NCBI RefSeq assembly: GCF_000828675.1
Contig: NZ_AP014510.1
Location: forward strand, 434,001-498,000
DNA length: 64,000 nucleotides
From: Thermotoga profunda AZM34c06
GTDB taxonomy: Bacteria; Thermotogota; Thermotogae; Thermotogales; DSM-5069
Direction: 5' to 3'
In this document: piece after piece, positions 6,455-16,851 of the stretch
Layout: every line of letters starts with the position of its first letter
How positions within the stretch are numbered: the first letter of the stretch is position 1
Made by a program: the position numbers and the translations under genes
Notes under the pieces: generated by a model
What the model saw: the letters and a program-made list of their open reading frames with translations, nothing else
The model's database searches: none
What the model was told of the DNA's origin: nothing

Positions 6455-7624
6455 TTGTTTAGCAAGTTAAGATCTATTCTCTGTAAGGTGTTTTTATTCA
6501 CCTTACTTTTTTTGATTGTTGGGATAACAACCATTTTTGGTGTTGAAACGTGGCAGAAGACCTTTGGAGGAAATAATGTCGACTATGGCAGGTATGTTTT
6601 AACTATAAACGATGGATTTCTCGCCGTTGGATCGACTTTTTCCTATGGAGCTGGTGGGTTTGATGTCTATGTTTTGAAAATAGATATTCACGGGAACAAA
6701 CTCTGGTACAAGACTTTTGGAGGTCAAGCCGATGATTTTGCATTTTGCGTAGTTAAGGCAAGAGGTGGTTATTTGATCGCTGGTTGGACAAAATCCTTTG
6801 GTGCTGGAAAAAGCGATGTGTACATTTTGAAAATCGATGAAGATGGCAATAGATTGTGGGAAAAGACATATGGTGGTCCAGAAGACGATTATGCGTATCA
6901 AACGCTGGCGATTGATAATGGTTTTGTAATTGTTGGCAGTACCCGATCATTTGAAGGAAAATCGTCCCAGGCTTATGTCATAAAAATAGATGAAGAAGGT
7001 AAGACTTTCTGGGAGAAAAATTATGGCACAGAAAGTAGCGAAGGATTGTTCAGTGTCGAGAAAACAGTGGATGGTTATCTCGCTGTTGGTCAATCCAATA
7101 AATCGGGTAGTTTTGATGCGTATTTTCTGTGGTTGAGTGAGAATGGCGAAATGATAAAAGAAGAATATCGTGGCGGTCCATATGAAGATTTTATCTATCG
7201 CATAAAAAGAACAACAGATGGCGGATACATAGCTGTTGGGGCATCTGAGTCGCCTCAGTATAATAGAAATTTCTATGTTGTCAGATTAAACAATGCAGGC
7301 AAATTGTCTTGGGAAAGAATTTATCATGAACCTAAGCCAGATGTCGCACGTTGCGTATTGGAGATGACAGATGGTTATTTAGTCTTCGGCTCAACCAATT
7401 CTTATGGAGCAGGGTATGATGATTTCTATTTGATGAAAATCGATAATAAAGGAGAAAAATTGTGGTCAAAAACTTATGGAGGTAAAGGTTTTGATGTAGG
7501 CTATTGCATCAACACAGTACCAGCAGGTGGTTTCATAATGATAGGAGATACCACCTCGACTGGTTCTGGTGGGTTTGATATTTACATTTTGAGAGTTGAT
7601 GAATTAGGTGGACTCTCGAATTAG
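6455..7624 (+). CDS. Exported seven-repeat beta-propeller protein
   Basis: 389 residues. AAGGGGGTG at 6440-6448 places the start at TTG 6455, giving an N-terminal hydrophobic export signal (KVFLFTLLFLIVGITTIFG). The rest is seven repeats of about 50 residues, each beginning W-x-K-T-[FY]-G-G-x-x-x-D and containing D-G-[GY]-[FL]-x-x-x-G-[ST] and D-x-Y-[VIL]-x-K-[IL]-D-x-x-G. Repeats 4 to 6 are the most diverged. Seven units match a closed seven-bladed propeller. Such proteins usually bind polysaccharide or protein outside the cell; no catalytic motif is seen. It converges on the mscL-like gene with only four bases between the stops. Confidence 0.75.
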   Translation: MFSKLRSILCKVFLFTLLFLIVGITTIFGVETWQKTFGGNNVDYGRYVLTINDGFLAVGSTFSYGAGGFDVYVLKIDIHGNKLWYKTFGGQADDFAFCVVKARGGYLIAGWTKSFGAGKSDVYILKIDEDGNRLWEKTYGGPEDDYAYQTLAIDNGFVIVGSTRSFEGKSSQAYVIKIDEEGKTFWEKNYGTESSEGLFSVEKTVDGYLAVGQSNKSGSFDAYFLWLSENGEMIKEEYRGGPYEDFIYRIKRTTDGGYIAVGASESPQYNRNFYVVRLNNAGKLSWERIYHEPKPDVARCVLEMTDGYLVFGSTNSYGAGYDDFYLMKIDNKGEKLWSKTYGGKGFDVGYCINTVPAGGFIMIGDTTSTGSGGFDIYILRVDELGGLSN

Positions 7625-7628
7625 CCTT

Positions 7629-7949
7629 TCATTTGCCTTCTTTTTTCTTTGTAGCCTCCGACACCTTTGTCATGGCTCTTATGATCAAAAAGACAACGAA
7701 TGCGACTATGAGAAAATCGATACCTGCTGATATGACCTTGCCCCAATAGATGGCTTTGTATTGGAGTTGTTCTATTGACTCGATATTTGCTGCTTTGAGT
7801 GCCGGTTGAAAAATCAAAGGCATTAGAAGATCATTCACAAGAGAGCTGACGAATTGATTTAGCTTTCCACCGATGATGATGGCTACTGCAAGGCCTATCA
7901 CATTGTACTGTTTAAGAAAAGCTGCAAATTCTTTAAACATTTTTCCCAT
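7629..7949 (-). CDS. mscL: Large-conductance mechanosensitive channel, MscL family
   Basis: 106 residues, shorter than the E. coli channel (136). The N-terminal amphipathic segment MFKEFAAFLKQYNVIGLA leads into helix 1 with the family pattern AVAIIIGGKLNQFVSSLVND, then LMPLI; a second helix (near residues 73-93) and a basic tail follow. MscL opens under membrane tension and releases solutes during osmotic downshock. GGGGGG lies six bases before the ATG. Monocistronic and convergent with the propeller gene. The short periplasmic loop and tail account for the reduced length. Confidence 0.9.
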   Translation of the reverse strand: MGKMFKEFAAFLKQYNVIGLAVAIIIGGKLNQFVSSLVNDLLMPLIFQPALKAANIESIEQLQYKAIYWGKVISAGIDFLIVAFVVFLIIRAMTKVSEATKKKEGK

Positions 7950-7976
7950 GATCTTCCCCCCTTGAGATATGAAAAT

Positions 7977-9737
7977 TTATTGAAATTGTTGACTCAATAA
8001 TTCTTTTGCAAGATACTTATCCTGCAAAACCAATTGTGTATAAATTCTTATTCTTTCTTTGAAATCCTCTAAGGTTATCATTCCTCGACCGGTATAGATT
8101 CTTGTGAGCTTTGCTGGAAGTTTGAGTTTTTCAAAATCAAAACCGAGTCTCTCTTTCAGTATGTATTTCATACCATGAATTACACGTGAAACCTTGGTGA
8201 GTTGCTGTATATCTACATCGTATCCGAGTAATCTCAAACCTTTTTCTACGATATTTGGGGTATATGTGCCTCTTGCAAAAAGACAAGTTACAAGGGAGTT
8301 GGTGATCATTCTCCAGAGAGATTCTTCGTACATCATTTTGACTTCTTTTTCAAGATCCTGTTGTCTTCCTAAGAATTTTTGGTCGATGCTGTATCCAGCA
8401 CAGTCAAGATGTGAGTGTCTTACACCGACTGCATATCCTACAAAGGCATCGGGTCCAGTCATGTTTCTGTTGAAATGTATTGCCAAGTCCTCGGCTCCAT
8501 ATTTTTTTGCACAGTGATAGACTCCTTTTTCAAGATCTCGGTAAAATTCATTCTTACCAGATGATATATTCTCCAAAACCTTCATGTAAGTTTGACTATC
8601 ACCAAAACCCAATGCAAGACCATCGGTGTGTGAAAGATTGATTATTCCTTTCTGGAAGGCTTCAGTCGCCCATGCTAAGGCGACACCAATACTTATGGCA
8701 TCCCAACCCTGTCTTTCTATGAATTGTAAGAGTTTTAGGACTTCTCCCGCATCGGCTATGCTCAAATTCGAGCCTATTGAATAAATCAGTTCATGGTCAT
8801 AGGATACCTTTATTGTCTTGTACATATGTGGGTCTGCGAATAATTCTCTTAGTGTACCAATGTGGATACATCCAATTGGGCAATGCGAACATGAGATCTG
8901 TTGTGCGAGAAAATTTTCAGCAAAATATTCTCCACTGATTCTTTGTGCATTTTCAAAGAAGCCTTGGGAAAAGTTGCGAGTAGGAAGGCTGTGTATTTTT
9001 GATAAAGGTACAACATTTGCCGAAGTTCCAAGATCTCTATATTTGTATGTGTTTTCAGAAAAAGCGAGATCTTTGAAGAGTTCATTATAAAATGCTTGGT
9101 ATTCCTTTTTGTCTGAAATAGAATTATACCTGTTTCCCGAGATCACAACAGCTTTGAGATTCTTTGATCCAAGTATCGCACCTAAGCCAAGTCTTCCAAA
9201 ATGTCTCGAGGAGTCAACGGTAACACATGCAATTGGCGACAATCTCTCTCCTGCAGGACCTATTCTTACTATGCTCTTTTTTCCTTTTCTGTTGTCTTCT
9301 TTTTCACGCAAGATTCTTTCAACTGAAAGTGCACTCCTTCCCCACAAAGATCGACATGGAACTAAATTAACTCTTTCATTGTCGATTGACAGATAAACAG
9401 GTTTTTCTGCCTTACCCGTAATTTTGATTACGTGAAATCCAGCAGCGAAGATGGCCAACGAAAGCCTTCCGCCGGCATGCGATTCGCCAAGATCGCCTGT
9501 CAAAGGAGATTTAAAGATCGCCACCGTCTTTGAAGCACTTGGGAAATAATTATTAAAGGGACCTATGCCAAAAAAAATCGGTGCTTGTGGTGAAAGAGGA
9601 TCCAATTCTCTGGTCAATTCTCTCAGAGCAAGATATGTTAAGACCCCCGTACCACCTATGAATCTTGAAAAAAGTTCAGATATATCTTTGACCTTTGTCT
9701 GTCCTGTACTGAGATCTATTTCAAGCATTTTGTACAT
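7977..9737 (-). CDS. Aldehyde:ferredoxin oxidoreductase-family tungstoenzyme
   Basis: 586 residues, the usual AOR length. N-terminal pterin-binding domain includes FIGGTG at 26-31, SHAGGRLSLAIFAAG at 86-100 and GRLGLGAILGSKNLKAV at 181-197. The [4Fe-4S] ligands are C283, C286, C290 (CSHCPIGC) and C485 (in SLVTCLFARG). Family members oxidise aldehydes to acids with ferredoxin using a tungsten bis-pterin centre. The region that usually reads ELPAYDPRG is diverged here (VGVRHSHLDCAGYS), so the substrate may not be a simple aldehyde. The gene overlaps the upstream ferredoxin gene by 17 bases, showing coupled synthesis. ATG 9737 follows GAGGTGAT. Confidence 0.9.
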   Translation of the reverse strand: MYKMLEIDLSTGQTKVKDISELFSRFIGGTGVLTYLALRELTRELDPLSPQAPIFFGIGPFNNYFPSASKTVAIFKSPLTGDLGESHAGGRLSLAIFAAGFHVIKITGKAEKPVYLSIDNERVNLVPCRSLWGRSALSVERILREKEDNRKGKKSIVRIGPAGERLSPIACVTVDSSRHFGRLGLGAILGSKNLKAVVISGNRYNSISDKKEYQAFYNELFKDLAFSENTYKYRDLGTSANVVPLSKIHSLPTRNFSQGFFENAQRISGEYFAENFLAQQISCSHCPIGCIHIGTLRELFADPHMYKTIKVSYDHELIYSIGSNLSIADAGEVLKLLQFIERQGWDAISIGVALAWATEAFQKGIINLSHTDGLALGFGDSQTYMKVLENISSGKNEFYRDLEKGVYHCAKKYGAEDLAIHFNRNMTGPDAFVGYAVGVRHSHLDCAGYSIDQKFLGRQQDLEKEVKMMYEESLWRMITNSLVTCLFARGTYTPNIVEKGLRLLGYDVDIQQLTKVSRVIHGMKYILKERLGFDFEKLKLPAKLTRIYTGRGMITLEDFKERIRIYTQLVLQDKYLAKELLSQQFQ

Positions 9738-10149
9738 TGCCTATCACCTCTTGCATTTCTAACACATTTGTTGGGCAATACATGACACAGATTCCACAGT
9801 GCAAACAAGGCAAAGGAAGTTTTGTTTCCTCATCCCACTGAAGTGCACTTGCACTGCATGCCTTAACACATTTCATACAATGTGTACATTTTTCTTTTTC
9901 TAATTCAACGCCATAACCTCTCTTCGAAAGCTTGAGTGCACCTGTAGGACAAACCTGTGCACATTCTGGATCAAGGCAAGCCTGACAGACTCTCACCGAG
10001 AATGCCCCTTCAACTCCAGGATAATTTTTCACTCTCATAGCTGATTTTTCTATCCCTATTATGTTATGCCACGCTCTGGAGCATGCAAACATACAAGAAT
10101 AACAACCTATACATCTTTCTCTGTCCTTGACGGATAATTTTTTGCCCAT
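9721..10149 (-). CDS. Four-cluster [4Fe-4S] ferredoxin, partner of the AOR-type enzyme
   Basis: 142 residues with four Cys clusters: CIGCYSCMFAC at 13-23, CQACLDPECAQVCP in the middle, CTHCMKCVKAC and CLHCGICVMYC near the C-terminus. This polyferredoxin type accompanies some tungsten AOR-family enzymes and carries electrons from the active subunit. No signal peptide. First gene of the two-gene minus operon; its ribosome site TTGGGGGAA lies upstream of the ATG, and the divergent DUF1576 gene begins 145 bases away. Confidence 0.9.
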   Translation of the reverse strand: MGKKLSVKDRERCIGCYSCMFACSRAWHNIIGIEKSAMRVKNYPGVEGAFSVRVCQACLDPECAQVCPTGALKLSKRGYGVELEKEKCTHCMKCVKACSASALQWDEETKLPLPCLHCGICVMYCPTNVLEMQEVIGNVQNA

Positions 10150-10219
10150 CTCTGTATTCCCCCAAGGTTGGTTTTTAATCGTATTATGAAAATCTTTCTA
10201 CGATAACTATAACACTAAA

Positions 10220-10239
10220 ATGACTTTTTAAAGTGTCAT
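10220..10239. promoter_or_regulatory. Palindrome in the ferredoxin/DUF1576 divergent promoter region
   Basis: The 20-base site follows the dyad ATGACnnTTTAAAnnGTCAT (16 of 20 positions symmetric). It sits in the 145-base divergent gap, just upstream of a TATAAA at 10260-10265 and overlapping the expected -35 position of the plus-strand gene. It looks like an operator for a dimeric regulator that could serve both operons. The regulator is unknown; the outer half-sites loosely resemble those of CRP/FNR-type proteins, but this is inference. Confidence 0.45.
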
Positions 10240-10294
10240 AAAATAAAGGCCAAGTTTGGTATAAATGAGATAGAAAACAAAAAGGGGGTCTTCT

Positions 10295-11542
10295 ATGAGA
10301 GTGAAGTTTTTACAGCGAGTTTTTCTTTATTCTGTTGGCGTGGTTTTCATTGCTTTTGGTTTGTTAACAGGAGGTTTGTGGCATCCAGTTGAATTGTATA
10401 GGAGCCTGGTGAGAATAGTGACCGTACCGGACTATCTTCTAACAGACTATATTGAAATAGGGGGTGTATCAGGGGCTTTCGTCAATTCTGGTCTTTTGAT
10501 GGTTCTTTTCTCTTGGTTACTTCAACTTCTAAAACTTCCAGTTACTGGTTTGTCTTTCGCATGTGTTTTAACTGTTGGTGGTTTTGCACTGTTTGGGAAA
10601 AATATATTCAACGTATGGCCTATAATCATCGGAGTTTACCTATATTCGTTGTACAAGCGTGAACCGTTCTCCAGGTACATTTACGTATCTTATTTTGGTA
10701 CGGCCATTTCACCTCTTGTAACGCAACTTGCATTTTTTTTGCCAGTTGGTGGTATGGAACAAGTGATATTGTCATATGTTGTTGCGATAATCATTGGTTT
10801 TTTCTTGACAGACTTGGCTGCTCATTTTTTGACAACGCACAAAGGTTATAATCTGTACAACGTAGGTTTTACCTGTGGGATAATAGGTATGGTCGCAGCG
10901 GCATTCATGAGAACCTATGGATATGAAATACCTTCCAGAAAAGTCTGGTCAAGCGGGAACAATCTTTTGTTGTCGATCTTTATGTTTTTGATCTTTTTCT
11001 TGCTCACATATTATGGCTGGAAACTAAATGGAAAATCGTTCAAAGATTATAAAAAATTGATGAAACACTCTGGTAGACTTGTCACCGACTTCATCATTTT
11101 AGAAGGTTTTCCAACAACACTTATTAATATGGGGATCCTTGGTTTCATAATGACTTTGTATGTGCTTTTGACTGGTAGTCAGTTGAATGGCCCAACGATT
11201 GGGGGCATAATGACAGTCGTTGGTTTTGGAGCATTTGGAAAACATCCAAAAAATGTCTTGCCGATTCTAATAGGGGTGACTATTAGTGCGGTAACCAACA
11301 AATACAGCCTCAGTGAACCAAATAATATTCTGGCTGCGTTGTTTGGAACAACGCTTGCCCCAATAGCTGGCGAATTTGGACCAATATGGGGTGTAATAGC
11401 TGGTTTTGTCCATACTGCCGTGGTAAACAATGTGGGATTTTTACACGGTGGTCTCAATCTCTACAACAACGGATTTGCAGGAGGTTTGGTTGCCATGTTT
11501 TTGGTACCACTCATTCGAGTTTTTCATAAGGGGGCGGAGTAG
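10295..11542 (+). CDS. DUF1576 membrane protein with internal duplication
   Basis: 415 residues, ten or more hydrophobic segments. Two halves repeat the same order of motifs: L-L-T-D-Y-I-E-I-G-G near residue 46 matches LVTDFIILEGFP near 265; LTVGGFALFGKNIFNVWPII matches TVVGFGAFGKHPKNVLPILI; and GYNLYNVGFTCGIIGM matches GLNLYNNGFAGGLVAM. Such duplications are typical of carriers with pseudo-twofold symmetry. I recognise the family as DUF1576 but know no substrate. The ribosome site AAGGGGG precedes ATG 10295. It is followed three bases later by a small soluble protein gene, and is divergent from the AOR pair. Confidence 0.75.
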   Translation: MRVKFLQRVFLYSVGVVFIAFGLLTGGLWHPVELYRSLVRIVTVPDYLLTDYIEIGGVSGAFVNSGLLMVLFSWLLQLLKLPVTGLSFACVLTVGGFALFGKNIFNVWPIIIGVYLYSLYKREPFSRYIYVSYFGTAISPLVTQLAFFLPVGGMEQVILSYVVAIIIGFFLTDLAAHFLTTHKGYNLYNVGFTCGIIGMVAAAFMRTYGYEIPSRKVWSSGNNLLLSIFMFLIFFLLTYYGWKLNGKSFKDYKKLMKHSGRLVTDFIILEGFPTTLINMGILGFIMTLYVLLTGSQLNGPTIGGIMTVVGFGAFGKHPKNVLPILIGVTISAVTNKYSLSEPNNILAALFGTTLAPIAGEFGPIWGVIAGFVHTAVVNNVGFLHGGLNLYNNGFAGGLVAMFLVPLIRVFHKGAE

Positions 11543-11545
11543 GTA

Positions 11546-11893
11546 ATGCCAAGAAAGATAGAGATCGTCACAAAGCTATCTTCACAGTTGATGAGATTTC
11601 TTTTCTCGAGATCTGCCAAAAAATTGAATATAGATATAGATATAAAAGAAGATGAAATTTCAGCCAAAATAGAGTCTAACGTTACATTGAATGATCAGGA
11701 TCTACATCTTCTTGAGAGCTATTTGAAAGTTGAAAGCCACGAAGAAATGGCTTATTACTATCTGCCATTGGCTGGTGAATATGGTTCAGACGAGGATATG
11801 ATGCTCATTTCAATGTTGGTGAACTCGGTGGAAATTGATTATGATAAGGAAAAGCTTCTTTTAAAAATAAAGTTCCTTGTCCATTCACGATGA
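11546..11893 (+). CDS. Small soluble protein cotranscribed with the DUF1576 gene
   Basis: 115 residues, not recognised. It has no signal peptide or membrane helix; the composition is charged, with an alternating segment LNIDIDIKEDEISAKIES that predicts beta strands, then acidic helices. GGGGGCGGAG at 11531-11540 gives a strong ribosome site six bases before ATG 11546. The gap to the DUF1576 gene is three bases, so the pair is almost certainly cotranslated. A cytosolic accessory or regulatory subunit of the carrier is the simplest reading (inference). Confidence 0.6.
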   Translation: MPRKIEIVTKLSSQLMRFLFSRSAKKLNIDIDIKEDEISAKIESNVTLNDQDLHLLESYLKVESHEEMAYYYLPLAGEYGSDEDMMLISMLVNSVEIDYDKEKLLLKIKFLVHSR

Positions 11894-11905
11894 AATGTGG
11901 AGTTG

Positions 11906-11933
11906 TTTTAAAGTGATATGTATGTGTTATAAT
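11906..11933 (+). promoter_or_regulatory. Promoter of the DUF3798-ABC operon
   Basis: A consensus -10 TATAAT at 11928-11933 with weak -35 candidates TTTTAA at 11906-11911 (16-base spacer) or TTGTTT at 11903-11908 (19). Transcription would start near 11940. Confidence 0.6.
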
Positions 11934-11971
11934 ACTGATACCAAAATCACGCGTAGGGGGTGTTTAAGAGG

Positions 11972-13090
11972 ATGCGAAAGTTAGTTGTTGGACTTGTACT
12001 TATTCTTGCCGTAACCTTTAGTTTTGCAGCACTTGGTTTTAAGATTGGTGTTGTAACGGGTACAGTTTCACAGGGCGAAGATGAGTATCGCGGTGCGGAA
12101 AATGTCATAGCAAAATATGGTAAAGAGATAATCCATGTCACTTATCCAGACAAATTCATGCAAGAGCAGGAGACAACGATTGCGAGAATAGTTGAACTTG
12201 CTTATGATCCAATGGTCAAGGCAATAGTAATTTGCCAGGGTGTACCTGGAACAGTTTCGGCTATAAGAAGAGTCAAGGAATTCAGACCTGATATGATCTT
12301 TGTCGTTGGTGTGGCACATGAAGATCCCGAACTCGTTGGTTCGGTAGCCGATGTTTCATTCCAAACCGATGACTTGGGTCGTGGTGTTACGATAATCGAT
12401 TTGGCTTACAGCATGGGCGCAAAGAGATTTATCCATTATTCTTTCCCAAGGCACATGAGTTACAAGCTCCTTGCAGAAAGACGCGATATCATGGAGAGAC
12501 GTTGTAAAGAACTCGGTATTGAATTCATATTTGTTTCCGCTCCAGATCCACTTGGAGAACAAGGTTTGACTGGCGCACAGCAATTCATTCTTGAAGATGT
12601 CCCGAGGCAAATCGCGAAGTACGGAAAGGATACTGCATTCTTCTCAACGAACTGCGGTATGCAAGAACCTCTACAAAAGGCTATTTTACAACATGGTGGA
12701 ATATATGCTGAACCATGTTGTCCATCACCAACACATGGTTTTCCGGGTTCTCTTGGCATAGCAATTCCACCTGAAAAGAAAGGCGATATTAACTACATAC
12801 TCAAGGCTGTGAATAGTAAGATAGTTGAACAAGGTGGAGCTGGCAGATTTGCAACATGGCCCATACCAATTAACATGGTCTTCGTCGAGGCTGGCGTTGA
12901 CTTGGCAGTGGAACTCGTCAAAAAGACTGTGAAGGCAGACGATATGAATGGTGTGAAAGCCATCTTTGACAAAGTGATCTCCCAAAAGGTTTCTGGATAT
13001 GGTCTAAAGTCCATAAGTAGATATCCAAATGCAGGTAATTATTATCTTGTAATATGTGATTCGGTCATCTTTGGAAAGACTCAATTCTGA
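11972..13090 (+). CDS. DUF3798 periplasmic binding protein for a nucleoside-type ABC importer
   Basis: 372 residues from ATG 11972; the in-frame GTG at 11960 sits inside the GGGGG ribosome site and is less likely. A signal peptide (MRKLVVGLVLILAVTFSFA) lacks a lipobox. The mature part has the periplasmic-binding fold pattern: FKIGVVTGTVSQGEDEYRGA, then MVKAIVICQGVPGT and PDMIFVVGVAHEDP. I recognise it as DUF3798, a family related in architecture to BMP-type ligand binders. It heads an operon with one double ATPase and two permeases. Several Cys occur (CGMQEP, EPCCPSP), unusual for an exported thermophile protein unless disulfide-bonded. Ligand unknown. Confidence 0.78.
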   Translation: MRKLVVGLVLILAVTFSFAALGFKIGVVTGTVSQGEDEYRGAENVIAKYGKEIIHVTYPDKFMQEQETTIARIVELAYDPMVKAIVICQGVPGTVSAIRRVKEFRPDMIFVVGVAHEDPELVGSVADVSFQTDDLGRGVTIIDLAYSMGAKRFIHYSFPRHMSYKLLAERRDIMERRCKELGIEFIFVSAPDPLGEQGLTGAQQFILEDVPRQIAKYGKDTAFFSTNCGMQEPLQKAILQHGGIYAEPCCPSPTHGFPGSLGIAIPPEKKGDINYILKAVNSKIVEQGGAGRFATWPIPINMVFVEAGVDLAVELVKKTVKADDMNGVKAIFDKVISQKVSGYGLKSISRYPNAGNYYLVICDSVIFGKTQF

Positions 13091-13120
13091 TGAGTATGGA
13101 TATTTAATTGCTTTTATTGA

Positions 13121-13150
13121 AGATGTCGGCTTTAACGCCGACATCTTTGA
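13121..13150 (+). terminator. Stem-loop between binding-protein and ATPase genes
   Basis: Perfect 10-bp stem AGATGTCGGC / GCCGACATCT with a TTTAAC loop, followed only by TTGATTT. The weak T-run suggests partial termination or 3'-end protection, making more binding protein than transporter. Confidence 0.65.
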
Positions 13151-13168
13151 TTTATGGGAGGAATGTGT

Positions 13169-14761
13169 GTGGAAAAAGTCCTTGAAATGAAGAACATCAG
13201 CAAATCTTTCTACGGTAACCAGGTCCTCAAAAATGTGAATATCGATTTGATGCCTGGTGAAGTTCACGGCCTTGTTGGAGAAAATGGTGCTGGTAAGTCC
13301 ACTTTGATGAATATCCTTTTTGGAATGCCTGTGATTCATTCAACTGGCGGTTTTGAGGGAGAAATATTCATAAATGGTCAGAAGGTTAACATTGATTCTC
13401 CAAGAAAGGCTATGGAACTTGGCATAGGTATGGTTCACCAAGAATTTATGTTATTGCCAGGATTCACCATTGTAGAAAACATCAAACTCAATAGAGAAAT
13501 AACCAAGAGTAATATTATCAGCAAGGTTTTTGGAAGATCTCTGGAGACTCTTGACTTCTCATCAATGAGAAAGGATGCAAAAGAAGCACTTACTTCAATT
13601 GGTATGAATGTCGATGAATTCTTGCCCGTTGCAGGACTGCCCGTTGGTCACAAACAATTCATAGAAATAGCCAGAGAAATAGACAAGAAAAATTTGAAAT
13701 TACTTGTTCTTGACGAGCCAACAGCGGTCTTATCAGAGACAGAGGCTGAAAAACTTCTTGATGCAGTTAAATTTCTTTCTTCAAAAGGCATATCAATCCT
13801 TTTCATATCTCACAGGCTTGTTGAAGTGCTGAAAGTTTCTAACAGAATAACTATCTTAAGAGATGGGATTGTCGTTGATCAGGGATCTGCCTCGTCTTTT
13901 ACGATATCTGAGATCGCGGAGAAAATGGTTGGACGAAAATTAGATTCAGTTGGTTTGCCATTTAGGAAGAGAGAACCTTCAGAAGCGGACATAATAATGT
14001 CTATCAAGAATTTGAAAGTAGAGATGCCAGGTGAGAATGTGAAAGATTTCAGTATAAATATTCGAAGGGGAGAAATACTCGGTATAGGAGGACTCGCAGG
14101 TCACGGGAAACTCGGTATAGCAAATGGCATAGCGGGTATATTCCCCGCAGTTGGAGAGATTTTGTTTGAAGGTAAACCATACAAGTTGAACGATCCAGCT
14201 TATGCTTTGAAAAACGGAGTGGTGTATCTATCTGAAGATCGTAGAGGTGTTGGACTTTTACTCAACGAATCCATAGAAATGAACATAGCAGCAACAGCAA
14301 TAGAGGCATTTGATGAATTTACAAAGCGACTCCTTGTCTTCAAGGTGTACGATAAGAAAACAATCAGAGAACATGCACTCAAAATGATCAAAGAACTTGA
14401 TATAAGATGCAAATCTCCCACTCAACCAGTTAGGAGATTGAGTGGTGGAAATCAGCAAAAGGTATGTTTAGCCAGAGCTTTTACTTTGAAACCAAAAATT
14501 CTTTTCGTGTCAGAGCCGACGAGGGGCATCGATGTTGGGGCAAAGAAACTTGTACTTGACCATCTGGTTAAGATGAATAGAGATTATGGTATCACAATAG
14601 TTATGACATCGAGTGAACTTGCCGAACTCAGAACAATTTGTGACAGAATAGCCCTTGTTGCCGAGGGAAGACTTTCTGCAATTTTACCACCAGATGCATC
14701 CGATGCGCAATTTGGACTCGCAATGGCTGGAGAATTACAGGAGGTGGATGCAAGTGAATAA
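13169..14761 (+). CDS. Double-domain ABC transporter ATPase (YufO/RbsA type)
   Basis: 530 residues from GTG 13169, seven bases behind GGGAGG at 13156-13161; the upstream ATGs at 13154 and 13163 overlap or abut that site. Two fused ATPase domains. The N-terminal domain has Walker [10 protein letters not shown], a diverged signature (LPVGHKQFIEIA) and Walker B LLVLDEPTAVLS. The C-terminal domain has a degenerate Walker A (GLAGHGKLG) but a good signature LSGGNQQKV and [10 protein letters not shown]. This asymmetry is normal for RbsA/YufO-type ATPases. It energises the two following permeases and overlaps the first by eight bases. Confidence 0.9.
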   Translation: MEKVLEMKNISKSFYGNQVLKNVNIDLMPGEVHGLVGENGAGKSTLMNILFGMPVIHSTGGFEGEIFINGQKVNIDSPRKAMELGIGMVHQEFMLLPGFTIVENIKLNREITKSNIISKVFGRSLETLDFSSMRKDAKEALTSIGMNVDEFLPVAGLPVGHKQFIEIAREIDKKNLKLLVLDEPTAVLSETEAEKLLDAVKFLSSKGISILFISHRLVEVLKVSNRITILRDGIVVDQGSASSFTISEIAEKMVGRKLDSVGLPFRKREPSEADIIMSIKNLKVEMPGENVKDFSINIRRGEILGIGGLAGHGKLGIANGIAGIFPAVGEILFEGKPYKLNDPAYALKNGVVYLSEDRRGVGLLLNESIEMNIAATAIEAFDEFTKRLLVFKVYDKKTIREHALKMIKELDIRCKSPTQPVRRLSGGNQQKVCLARAFTLKPKILFVSEPTRGIDVGAKKLVLDHLVKMNRDYGITIVMTSSELAELRTICDRIALVAEGRLSAILPPDASDAQFGLAMAGELQEVDASE

Positions 14762-15794
14762 ACTCTTTGATTTTCTAAAGCGTATGGACATACCAACTTT
14801 GATAATCTTCATCTTTCTCATAGGCCTTTTTGTCTTGGCTGCCTTTACGAATGTCTCAATCCCATCTCTAATAGGTGATTCGTTGAAGAGAATCGGGATG
14901 AACGGTGTTTTAGTGCTTGCGATGGTACCAACTATAAGATCTGGTATTGGTCCAAATTTTGGTCTTCCAATTGGAATAATCGGTGGACTCATCAGTGCGT
15001 TGATCAGTATGCAACTTGGTCTTGTTGGATTCACTGGTCTTTGGTTTTCTGTATTACTGGCTATAGCATTTTGTACAGCCATTGGTTTTGCTTATGGTTG
15101 GCTTCTCGAAAGAGTTCGTGGGCAAGAGATGATGGTAGGAACATATATGGGTTATTCAATAGTTGCATTCATGTCTATTATGTGGTTATTGTTACCTTTC
15201 TCCAATCCCGATATGGTCTGGGCAATTGGTGGTAGGGGGTTGAGGTATACATTGACTCTTCAGAATTATTTTGGGCAGGTATTGAACAATTTCTTGAAAT
15301 TCAAAATTGGAGGGATTGAAGTACCAACTGGATTGTTACTATTTTTCGCAGGTAGTTGTTTTGCCGTTTATTTATTTTTCAAAACGAGGTTAGGTCTTGC
15401 CATTGATTTGACAGGTCAGAATGAACGCTATGCGATAAGTTCGGGTGTGAACACAAAAAGAGCAAGATTGATTGCTGTAACATTTTCCACGATCATAGGT
15501 GGTGTCGGGATCATAGTATATGCACAGAGTTATGGTTTCTTACAACTATATCAAGCTCCGTTGTTCATGACCTTTCCTGCAGTGGCTTCTATTTTAATAG
15601 GAGGTGCTTCCATAAGGAGGGCTTCTATAACAAATGTCGTTGTTGGAACTGTCGCTTTTCAGACACTTCTGACGATAGCTTTACCTGTCCTGAGTCAAAT
15701 AACAAGGGGAGACATAACAGAAGTTATGAGATTAATTGTGAGCAATGGAATGATTCTATATGCACTAACCAGGACTCCAAAGGAGGCGAACTGA
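14754..15794 (+). CDS. ABC transporter permease 1 (nucleoside/BMP type)
   Basis: 346 residues from GTG 14754, eight bases after AGGAGG at 14739-14744; the in-frame frame extends upstream but that part lies inside the ATPase gene. About eight to ten membrane helices. Typical branched-permease stretches are GIGPNFGLPIGIIGGLI, QNERYAISSGVNTKRARL and ASILIGGASIRRASITNVV, the last two forming the ATPase-contact loop and the family GGAS motif. Forms a heterodimer with the next gene product. Substrate follows the DUF3798 protein and is unknown. Confidence 0.88.
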   Translation: MNKLFDFLKRMDIPTLIIFIFLIGLFVLAAFTNVSIPSLIGDSLKRIGMNGVLVLAMVPTIRSGIGPNFGLPIGIIGGLISALISMQLGLVGFTGLWFSVLLAIAFCTAIGFAYGWLLERVRGQEMMVGTYMGYSIVAFMSIMWLLLPFSNPDMVWAIGGRGLRYTLTLQNYFGQVLNNFLKFKIGGIEVPTGLLLFFAGSCFAVYLFFKTRLGLAIDLTGQNERYAISSGVNTKRARLIAVTFSTIIGGVGIIVYAQSYGFLQLYQAPLFMTFPAVASILIGGASIRRASITNVVVGTVAFQTLLTIALPVLSQITRGDITEVMRLIVSNGMILYALTRTPKEAN

Positions 15795-15795
15795 G

Positions 15796-16851
15796 ATGGA
15801 AAAATTAAGAAAAATCTTACTATCAAACGCAGTCCCCATAGCCTTTTTGGTTCTTTCCATCTCAGCGGTTTTGATTGCAAAGATACCTCCGTTGTTTTTG
15901 TTAAGTGAAGTTGTCCGGCGACTCAGTAGAAATACCTTTTTAGTGCTTTCGCTTCTTATACCAGTAGTTGCTGGAATGGGTTTGAATTTTGGTATCGTTC
16001 TTGGGGCTATGGCTGGACAAACAGCGATGTTCTTCGTGGTAGATTGGAAGATGAAAGGTATACCAGGAATTGTCGTATCTATGCTCCTTGGATCGGCTAT
16101 AGCAGTCATCTTGGGATGGATTGTGGGACTTGTTCTAAACAGGGCAAAGGGTAGAGAGATGATCACATCGATGATCCTTGGCTTTTTTGCAAATGGGGTT
16201 TATCAGTTAATCTTTTTATTCTTTATAGGCTCGATAATTCCGTTTAAAACGAAACAATTTTTACTCCCTGAAGGTGTCGGTTTGAGAAATACAGTAGACC
16301 TTTATGGAACTATTGCATCGGCCTTGAACAAACCCTGGACAATTCAAATAGGAACTGTGAGAATTTTTATGATACCGATACTCATAACAGTTATTCTTTG
16401 TTTTTTCATATACTTTTTGTTCAAAACAAAACTCGGTCAAGATATCAGAGCGGTAGGTCAAGATATGCACATAGCTGAGGTTGCTGGGATAAATGTGAAC
16501 AGGCTCAGAATAATATCGGTGATTATGTCCACAGTTCTTGCGGCAATAGGTCAGATCATATACCTGCAGGATATAAGTACCATAAATACTTATAACAGTC
16601 ACGAGCAAGTTGGGCTGTTCTCGATTGCTGCATTACTCGTTGGTGGTGCGTCGACAAGGAAGGCTTCTATCTGGAATGCGATAATAGGTGTTTTGTTGTT
16701 TCATACCCTATTTGTTGTTGCGCCGAGTGCTGGAAACAAATTGTTTGGACAACCTCAAGTTGGAGAATTTTTCAGGGAATTTCTTGCTTATGCAGTAATA
16801 GCATTTGCACTTGCAATGCATGGTTGGAGTGCAAAAAAGCAAAAGCATTAG
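15796..16851 (+). CDS. ABC transporter permease 2 (nucleoside/BMP type)
   Basis: 351 residues, paralogous to the preceding permease: GMGLNFGIVLGAMAGQ, VGQDMHIAEVAGINVNRLR and ALLVGGASTRKASIWNAI occur in the same order. AGGAGG at 15781-15786 precedes ATG 15796, one base after the upstream stop. Last gene of the operon; a bidirectional terminator follows at 16871. Confidence 0.88.
   Translation: MEKLRKILLSNAVPIAFLVLSISAVLIAKIPPLFLLSEVVRRLSRNTFLVLSLLIPVVAGMGLNFGIVLGAMAGQTAMFFVVDWKMKGIPGIVVSMLLGSAIAVILGWIVGLVLNRAKGREMITSMILGFFANGVYQLIFLFFIGSIIPFKTKQFLLPEGVGLRNTVDLYGTIASALNKPWTIQIGTVRIFMIPILITVILCFFIYFLFKTKLGQDIRAVGQDMHIAEVAGINVNRLRIISVIMSTVLAAIGQIIYLQDISTINTYNSHEQVGLFSIAALLVGGASTRKASIWNAIIGVLLFHTLFVVAPSAGNKLFGQPQVGEFFREFLAYAVIAFALAMHGWSAKKQKH

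Follow-up and report, generated by a model that had tools for sequence, protein, structure and literature searches.

The gene pair and its setting

The window examined here is a stretch of 64,000 nucleotides from the genome of Thermotoga profunda AZM34c06, and on its forward strand two genes follow one another with three bases between the stop codon of the first and the ATG of the second. The first (10295..11542, +) encodes a membrane protein of 415 residues that belongs to the DUF1576 family and is predicted from Pfam, self-alignment and a structural model to be an inverted-repeat channel of the Amt/urea transporter/RnfD type. The second (11546..11893, +) encodes a soluble partner of 115 residues, predicted from a locus survey, a model and profile comparisons to be a degenerate GHKL domain without ATP-site motifs. 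Downstream of the pair (11960-16851, +) lie a DUF3798 (PF12683) binding protein and then an ABC ATPase and two permeases, by eye an ABC importer resembling the BMP/ribose type. On the minus strand, divergent from the pair (7977-10149), are an aldehyde-ferredoxin-oxidoreductase-type protein and an overlapping gene for a multi-cluster ferredoxin. No Rfam family matched window positions 7000-14000 at E≤1.

Relatives were collected by scanning one genome per species, which gave 168 related stretches, the best 80 of which are the loci L021-L100. They come from Thermotogota, Clostridia, Synergistota, Mollicutes of the Izimaplasma/Acholeplasma type, Enterococcus, Anaerolineales and others, and DUF1576 was found in none of 14 control genomes. 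The alignment of the membrane protein holds the window and 73 of the 80 loci (74 rows) and omits L027, L045, L046, L071, L078, L094 and L097, which have broken or open frames or a start placed too late by the rule used. The partner alignment has 57 rows and omits L030, a locus cut by the contig end. The DUF1576 frame is broken before the end of the match in L027, L045 and L097, by sequencing error or as a pseudogene, and the partner is intact in L027 and L045.

A gene neighbourhood survey, which the first-pass annotation had proposed as a check, identified the partner as the recurrent neighbour, directly downstream of the DUF1576 gene in 57 of these best 80 loci. Among 231 other neighbours, picked by a crude longest-ORF rule covering 150 to 900 residues and scanned against Pfam as two unrelated sets, the commonest family accounted for 6 neighbours in the set of 116 and 5 in that of 115, which leaves no conserved third gene. 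Riboswitches were considered as a clue to the solute and set aside: 11 Rfam matches across 33 of the 80 loci were of no use, the nearest upstream being tRNAs (L025). In L033 a glycine riboswitch lies upstream of the DUF1576 start, on the opposite strand.

Internal duplication and conserved residues

PF07613 (DUF1576) matches the 415-residue protein in two stretches (E 1.3e-118, 393.4 bits against a gathering cut-off of 25), is the sole Pfam family found in it at E≤0.1, and is present in all 74 aligned homologues. As the PF07613 model has 178 positions and matches the protein twice, much of the self-similarity is already implicit in Pfam. The N-terminal repeat comprises residues 1-208 (10295..10918, +) and the C-terminal repeat residues 220-410 (10952..11524, +). 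Compared directly, the two halves align by BLASTP at E 3e-17 with 27% identity over 176 columns, and their local alignment score is 184, where 2000 shuffles reached 77 at most; as family profiles built from the 74 rows, they align over 189 columns with 99.9% probability (E 4e-34). This self-similarity is far above chance, and on sequence evidence the protein is an internal duplication, as had been proposed at first reading.

The motif pairs that the same reading had seen recurring about 200 residues apart are real, with 202 to 216 residues between copies. Repeat-equivalent residues are D51/D265, N64/N278, GK101-102/GK315-316, N106/N320, P140/P356, H182/H384, N186/N388 and YN188-189/YN390-391, and 20 columns of the alignment are invariant. 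The first copy of one motif, HKGYNLYN (residues 182-189; 10838..10861, +), contains four residues found in all 74 proteins (H182, G184, Y188 and N189). In the second copy, HGGLNLYNN (residues 384-392; 11444..11470, +), position 384 is His in 54 of 74 and Gln in the other 20. The Gln variant is found in 20 of 20 members of one clade, the Mollicutes-type loci within L061-L088, all of which have the partner. The symmetric loops also carry conserved lysines, K102 in 63 and K316 in 64 of 74.

Predicted fold of the membrane protein

The AlphaFold2 model computed from this alignment has a pLDDT of 94.1 and a pTM of 0.93. Each half is predicted to consist of five long helices and one pair of short helices, with helices at residues 2-27, 31-43, 52-78, 85-97 and 108-120 (the short pair), 129-148, 154-182 and 189-207 in the N-terminal repeat, and at 223-244, 272-292, 299-311 and 318-334 (the short pair), 342-361, 363-384 and 391-412 in the C-terminal repeat. 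Laying one repeat on the other gives 189 pairs, of which 88.9% share their predicted secondary structure; in 159 circular shifts the agreement averaged 64.0% and never exceeded 75.1%. The two-repeat fold suggested in the first-pass annotation is thus upheld: self-similarity and pseudo-symmetry, whose absence was to count against it, are both present. In place of its word carrier, channel-fold protein is the better label.

Foldseek candidates (998 chains) were re-aligned to the model with VIA-align, a program in which Z up to about 13 can occur among helical bundles; ranks 1-33 were all Amt/Mep/Rh proteins or urea transporters, with Z from 13.0 to 10.4. The top score for Amt/Rh was that of AmtB 1u77 (Z 13.0; 247 residues, 4.7 Å), and the urea transporters followed at Z 11.4 to 10.6 over 236-261 residues (UT-B 6qd5: 251 residues, 4.8 Å). 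After rank 33 came RnfD (9eri_D) at Z 8.5 and UlaA at 6.2 and 5.5, and the remainder did not exceed 4.2. Foldseek itself returned no match reaching E 0.001, and the highest probabilities it listed belonged to urea transporters (0.60, 0.33 and 0.30).

Sequence profiles were blank in this respect. Aligned by hhalign, the DUF1576 family gave a probability of at most 0.2% with 15 Amt proteins and at most 0.5% with 25 RnfD-type proteins; as Amt compared with RnfD came out just as blank, this profile test is insensitive. PF00909, PF03253 and PF03116 did not match any of the 74 members, in which five families were found at E≤0.1. No solved structure was related by sequence to the protein, the best E values of 0.4 and 1.3 being at chance level.

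Loop charges bear on the orientation of the repeats. By the positive-inside rule, the loop 28-51 (family means K+R 1.34, D+E 3.28) should lie outside, its repeat-equivalent 245-271 (K+R 4.74, D+E 2.91) inside, and the linker 208-222 (K+R 0.92, D+E 1.99) outside, which fits inverted five-helix repeats. The repeat-equivalent H182 and H384 are a candidate counterpart of the twin pore histidines of Amt. The modelling strongly suggests an Amt/Rh - urea transporter - NqrB/RnfD fold for the membrane protein, built from two inverted five-helix repeats. Passages in PMC10643135 and PMC9588780 describe NqrB and RnfD as resembling urea and ammonium transporters, and the latter depicts RnfD as two inverted five-helix halves.

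Linkage of the partner gene

In the 56 aligned loci the start codon of the partner lies between -38 and +56 bases from the stop codon of the DUF1576 gene. The partner was not found in 23 of the 80 loci, two of which (L057 and L094) end too near the DUF1576 gene to be judged. Plotted on the tree of the membrane protein, its presence requires 8 state changes by parsimony, against a mean of 18.4 and a minimum of 15 for shuffled labels, so that it seems to have been lost or gained several times. Membrane proteins without the partner retain the full conserved core.

The partner counts in these loci come from a profile seeded with the window protein and built in two rounds; whole genomes were surveyed as well. 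Among 103 Thermotogota genomes DUF1576 was present in 23 and the partner in 22, all of them inside those 23, and in 0 of the other 80; 22 of 23 partner places start no more than 100 bases from where the DUF1576 match ends. In one genome (G040) the partner lies some 520 bases past that match and is not directly adjoining. For the genome that bears DUF1576 and appeared without partner in this survey (G022), the two-round profile finds the partner in locus L012. Among 194 Clostridiales genomes the partner was present in 77 of the 89 that have DUF1576 and in 0 of the 105 free of it, a count that leaves aside four genomes with weak partial matches only. The partner was thus never found alone in the 297 genomes of the two groups. 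By gene order and co-occurrence the 115-residue protein is a genetically linked partner of the membrane protein, and the earlier proposal of a dedicated partner is borne out, though as dedicated rather than obligatory, given the loci in which it is absent or not seen.

Predicted fold of the partner and apparent loss of the ATP site

The 115-residue protein matched no Pfam (E≤0.1) or NCBIfam family and hence no PII/GlnK family, and HATPase_c was recovered in 2 of 57 partner members, with a best E of 0.072. Its model has a pLDDT of 91.4, and the top 50 rows of the Foldseek search, with a best E of 8.2e-4, consist entirely of GHKL proteins of the histidine-kinase or anti-sigma kind. VIA-align placed DesK at Z 8.3 (85 residues, 2.4 Å) and SpoIIAB at 7.9, level with designed proteins at Z 8.3-8.5. 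No solved structure was related by sequence, the best hit being the designed protein TOP7 at E 0.13.

A further link came from the partner profile, which in six Clostridiales genomes matched ORFs some 300 codons long (E 6.5e-5 to 6.8e-4) at the N-box helix and the strands that follow it. The translations of these six ORFs contain HDLRTPLTS and GLGL, which we take to be motifs of sensor histidine kinases, and the ORFs are read as such. An hhalign comparison of the partner family with the six kinases, themselves chosen by their own match, covered 105 columns with 92% probability. At partner position 18, the counterpart of the kinase N-box Asn, 50 of the 57 members have F or Y and none has Asn, and neither DxGxG nor GxGL occurs in any of the 57. 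In window numbering the residues held by the family majority are R64, E67, E69, Y71, W73, L75, G77, E84, D93 and R110, and the window protein departs from them at 64, 69, 73, 84, 93 and 110. In the register given by hhalign, we read the conserved R..E.E.YYW.L.G segment as occupying the place of the kinase ATP lid. Model and profiles together strongly suggest a GHKL (histidine-kinase ATPase) domain in the partner, one whose nucleotide site has been lost. The stretches L166-L171 encode sensor histidine kinases of small size; by eye their GHKL domain has no DxGxG (e.g. FKNDAPN) and has kept GLGL, and they are possible intermediates towards the partner family.

Distribution relative to Amt

No Amt was found in the window genome, which has two separate PF03116 genes. 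Across the 103 Thermotogota genomes, 1 had both DUF1576 and Amt, 22 DUF1576 only, 26 Amt only and 54 neither. The corresponding numbers for the 194 Clostridiales were 25, 64, 84 and 21, an odds ratio of 0.098 (Fisher p 3e-13, kinship uncorrected). Kinship was addressed with RpoB-domain trees of 150 among the 177 Clostridiales genomes with an RpoB match (17 of the 194 had none). Dependent evolution of the two genes was favoured over independent evolution with a likelihood ratio statistic (LR) of 27.3 on the nucleotide tree and 27.4 on the protein tree, and none of 115 bootstrap sets reached the observed value (maximum 13.8). By parsimony the two traits change 28 and 23 times across the nucleotide tree. 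Simulation on this tree gave p 0.07 for DUF1576, 5e-5 for Amt and 0.044 for both together; on the protein tree it gave 0 of 20000 for DUF1576, 0 of 20000 for Amt and 1.5e-4 for both together. The rates fitted to the nucleotide tree have the presence of either gene speeding the loss of the other; those fitted to the protein tree, one of them at its bound, show this for the loss of Amt only.

Nitrogen fixation is part of the pattern. nifH exceeded the cut-off in 54 Clostridiales genomes, all 54 with Amt, and is itself avoided by DUF1576 (4 of 89 DUF1576 genomes; LR 24.7). In the 140 nifH-negative Clostridiales, 21 had both genes, 64 DUF1576 only, 34 Amt only and 21 neither (odds ratio 0.20, Fisher p 1.7e-5, kinship uncorrected), and the corresponding tree of 114 tips gave LR 12.4 (p about 0.014 by chi-square). 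The avoidance between DUF1576 and Amt thus survives the phylogenetic test and is weaker without nitrogen fixers, indicating that nifH explains part of it. That DUF1576 replaces Amt everywhere was considered and rejected, the two coexisting in the 25 Clostridiales and the one Thermotogota genome above and in 9 of 30 DUF1576 genomes from the relative loci, 8 of these 30 being also among the 194. The avoidance fits either a functional overlap with Amt or a shared axis of nitrogen economy, which are inseparable here.

Possible function of the pair

We favour, with a probability of roughly 0.58, the reading that the pair consists of a membrane channel for a small solute and its cytosolic regulator. 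The partner would dock on the channel at the cytosolic face with its positive charge, and could then gate the channel or report its state independently of ATP. Analogies for such docking would be GlnK plugging AmtB or the kinase module reading Ks-Amt5. The solute might be ammonium or ammonia, taken up or, in amino-acid-fermenting anaerobes, released. This guess, held with low confidence, derives from the tendency of genomes to carry either the module or Amt; K102 and K316 in the symmetric loops do not favour a cation, and these lysines, together with the cases of coexistence with Amt, speak against ammonium. Still more tentative is the fuller proposal of a second, sequence-unrelated ammonium/ammonia channel system, in which a channel of Amt fold, gated by a GHKL-derived protein of its own that does not sense ATP, would replace AmtB-GlnK in anaerobic Thermotogota, Clostridia, Synergistota and Izimaplasma-type bacteria.

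A serious competitor, about on a par with ammonium itself, is a channel for another small solute such as urea, formate, bicarbonate, short amides or Na+, the avoidance of Amt then reflecting lifestyle, with amino-acid fermenters carrying the module and nitrogen scavengers carrying Amt. The conserved lysines agree with it, as do the service of one fold to both urea and Na+ and the avoidance of nifH about as strongly as of Amt; the persistence of Amt avoidance in the nifH-negative genomes runs against it. Distinctly less probable is a non-transporting sensor, in which the Amt-like domain would bind a solute and pass the signal to the partner, as if Ks-Amt5 had been split into two genes. The probable GHKL ancestry of the partner is in its favour, and so are passages reporting that Ks-Amt5 joins an Amt domain to a histidine kinase (PMC5764959) and seems occluded for transport (PMC10433425). 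However, a partner without the N-box Asn and the glycine motifs should phosphorylate nothing, the 231 neighbours scanned show no third gene, a response regulator for example, that is conserved, and the membrane proteins without partner keep the whole conserved core. That the helical likeness is a coincidence and DUF1576 a two-repeat membrane protein without relation to these channels, which might be an enzyme or an elevator carrier, is more doubtful still: blank sequence profiles, the Foldseek result and the Z of 6.2 for UlaA, an elevator-type carrier, would allow it, but ranks 1-33 are all taken by two families that share one fold without sequence kinship, RnfD comes directly after them, and Z then falls from 10.4 and 8.5 to 6.2 and 4.2.

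DUF1576 is common, being present in 89 of the 194 sampled Clostridiales genomes, and a full-text literature search, with most subscription journals outside its coverage, returned no papers under DUF1576 or PF07613. Assigning the family to a fold of ammonium, urea and Na+ channels would give it a testable function. If the proposed role of the partner is true, it would represent a rare fate for the ATP-binding domain of a kinase, that of a dedicated channel regulator working without ATP, and if the solute is ammonium, the pair would account for ammonium movement in many of the sampled anaerobes without Amt.

Comparison with known systems

Among the families of the predicted fold, NqrB/RnfD (PF03116) resemble DUF1576 in their inverted five-helix halves and in a Z of 8.5, but no PF03116 match is found in it. 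Urea transporters (PF03253) share the two repeats at Z 11.4 to 10.6, yet PF03253 is found in 0 of 74 DUF1576 members. On the side of the partner, the GHKL proteins (the CA domain of histidine kinases, SpoIIAB/RsbW) are alike in predicted fold and, by profile alignment, probably in sequence, and differ in that the ATP-site residues are missing in 57 of 57 partners.

As pairs, the closest comparisons are with Amt proteins. PII proteins are ferredoxin-like, and their gene neighbours amtB. AmtB (Amt/Mep/Rh, PF00909) with GlnK parallels the present pair in the predicted fold at Z 13.0, a candidate counterpart of the paired histidines and the small, presumably cytosolic partner, whereas DUF1576 has no Pfam or profile match to it, has paired short helices in each repeat and has a GHKL-like partner. 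In the GlnK3:AmtB3 complex, as described in part of PMC10433425, the T-loop of GlnK blocks AmtB. Ks-Amt5 is fused and catalytically active, unlike the separate DUF1576 partner of 115 residues without ATP-site motifs; it would have in common with the pair described here an Amt-fold module combined with a module of GHKL type, and the Sensor Amt Protein structure 6eu6 aligns with the model at Z 12.5.
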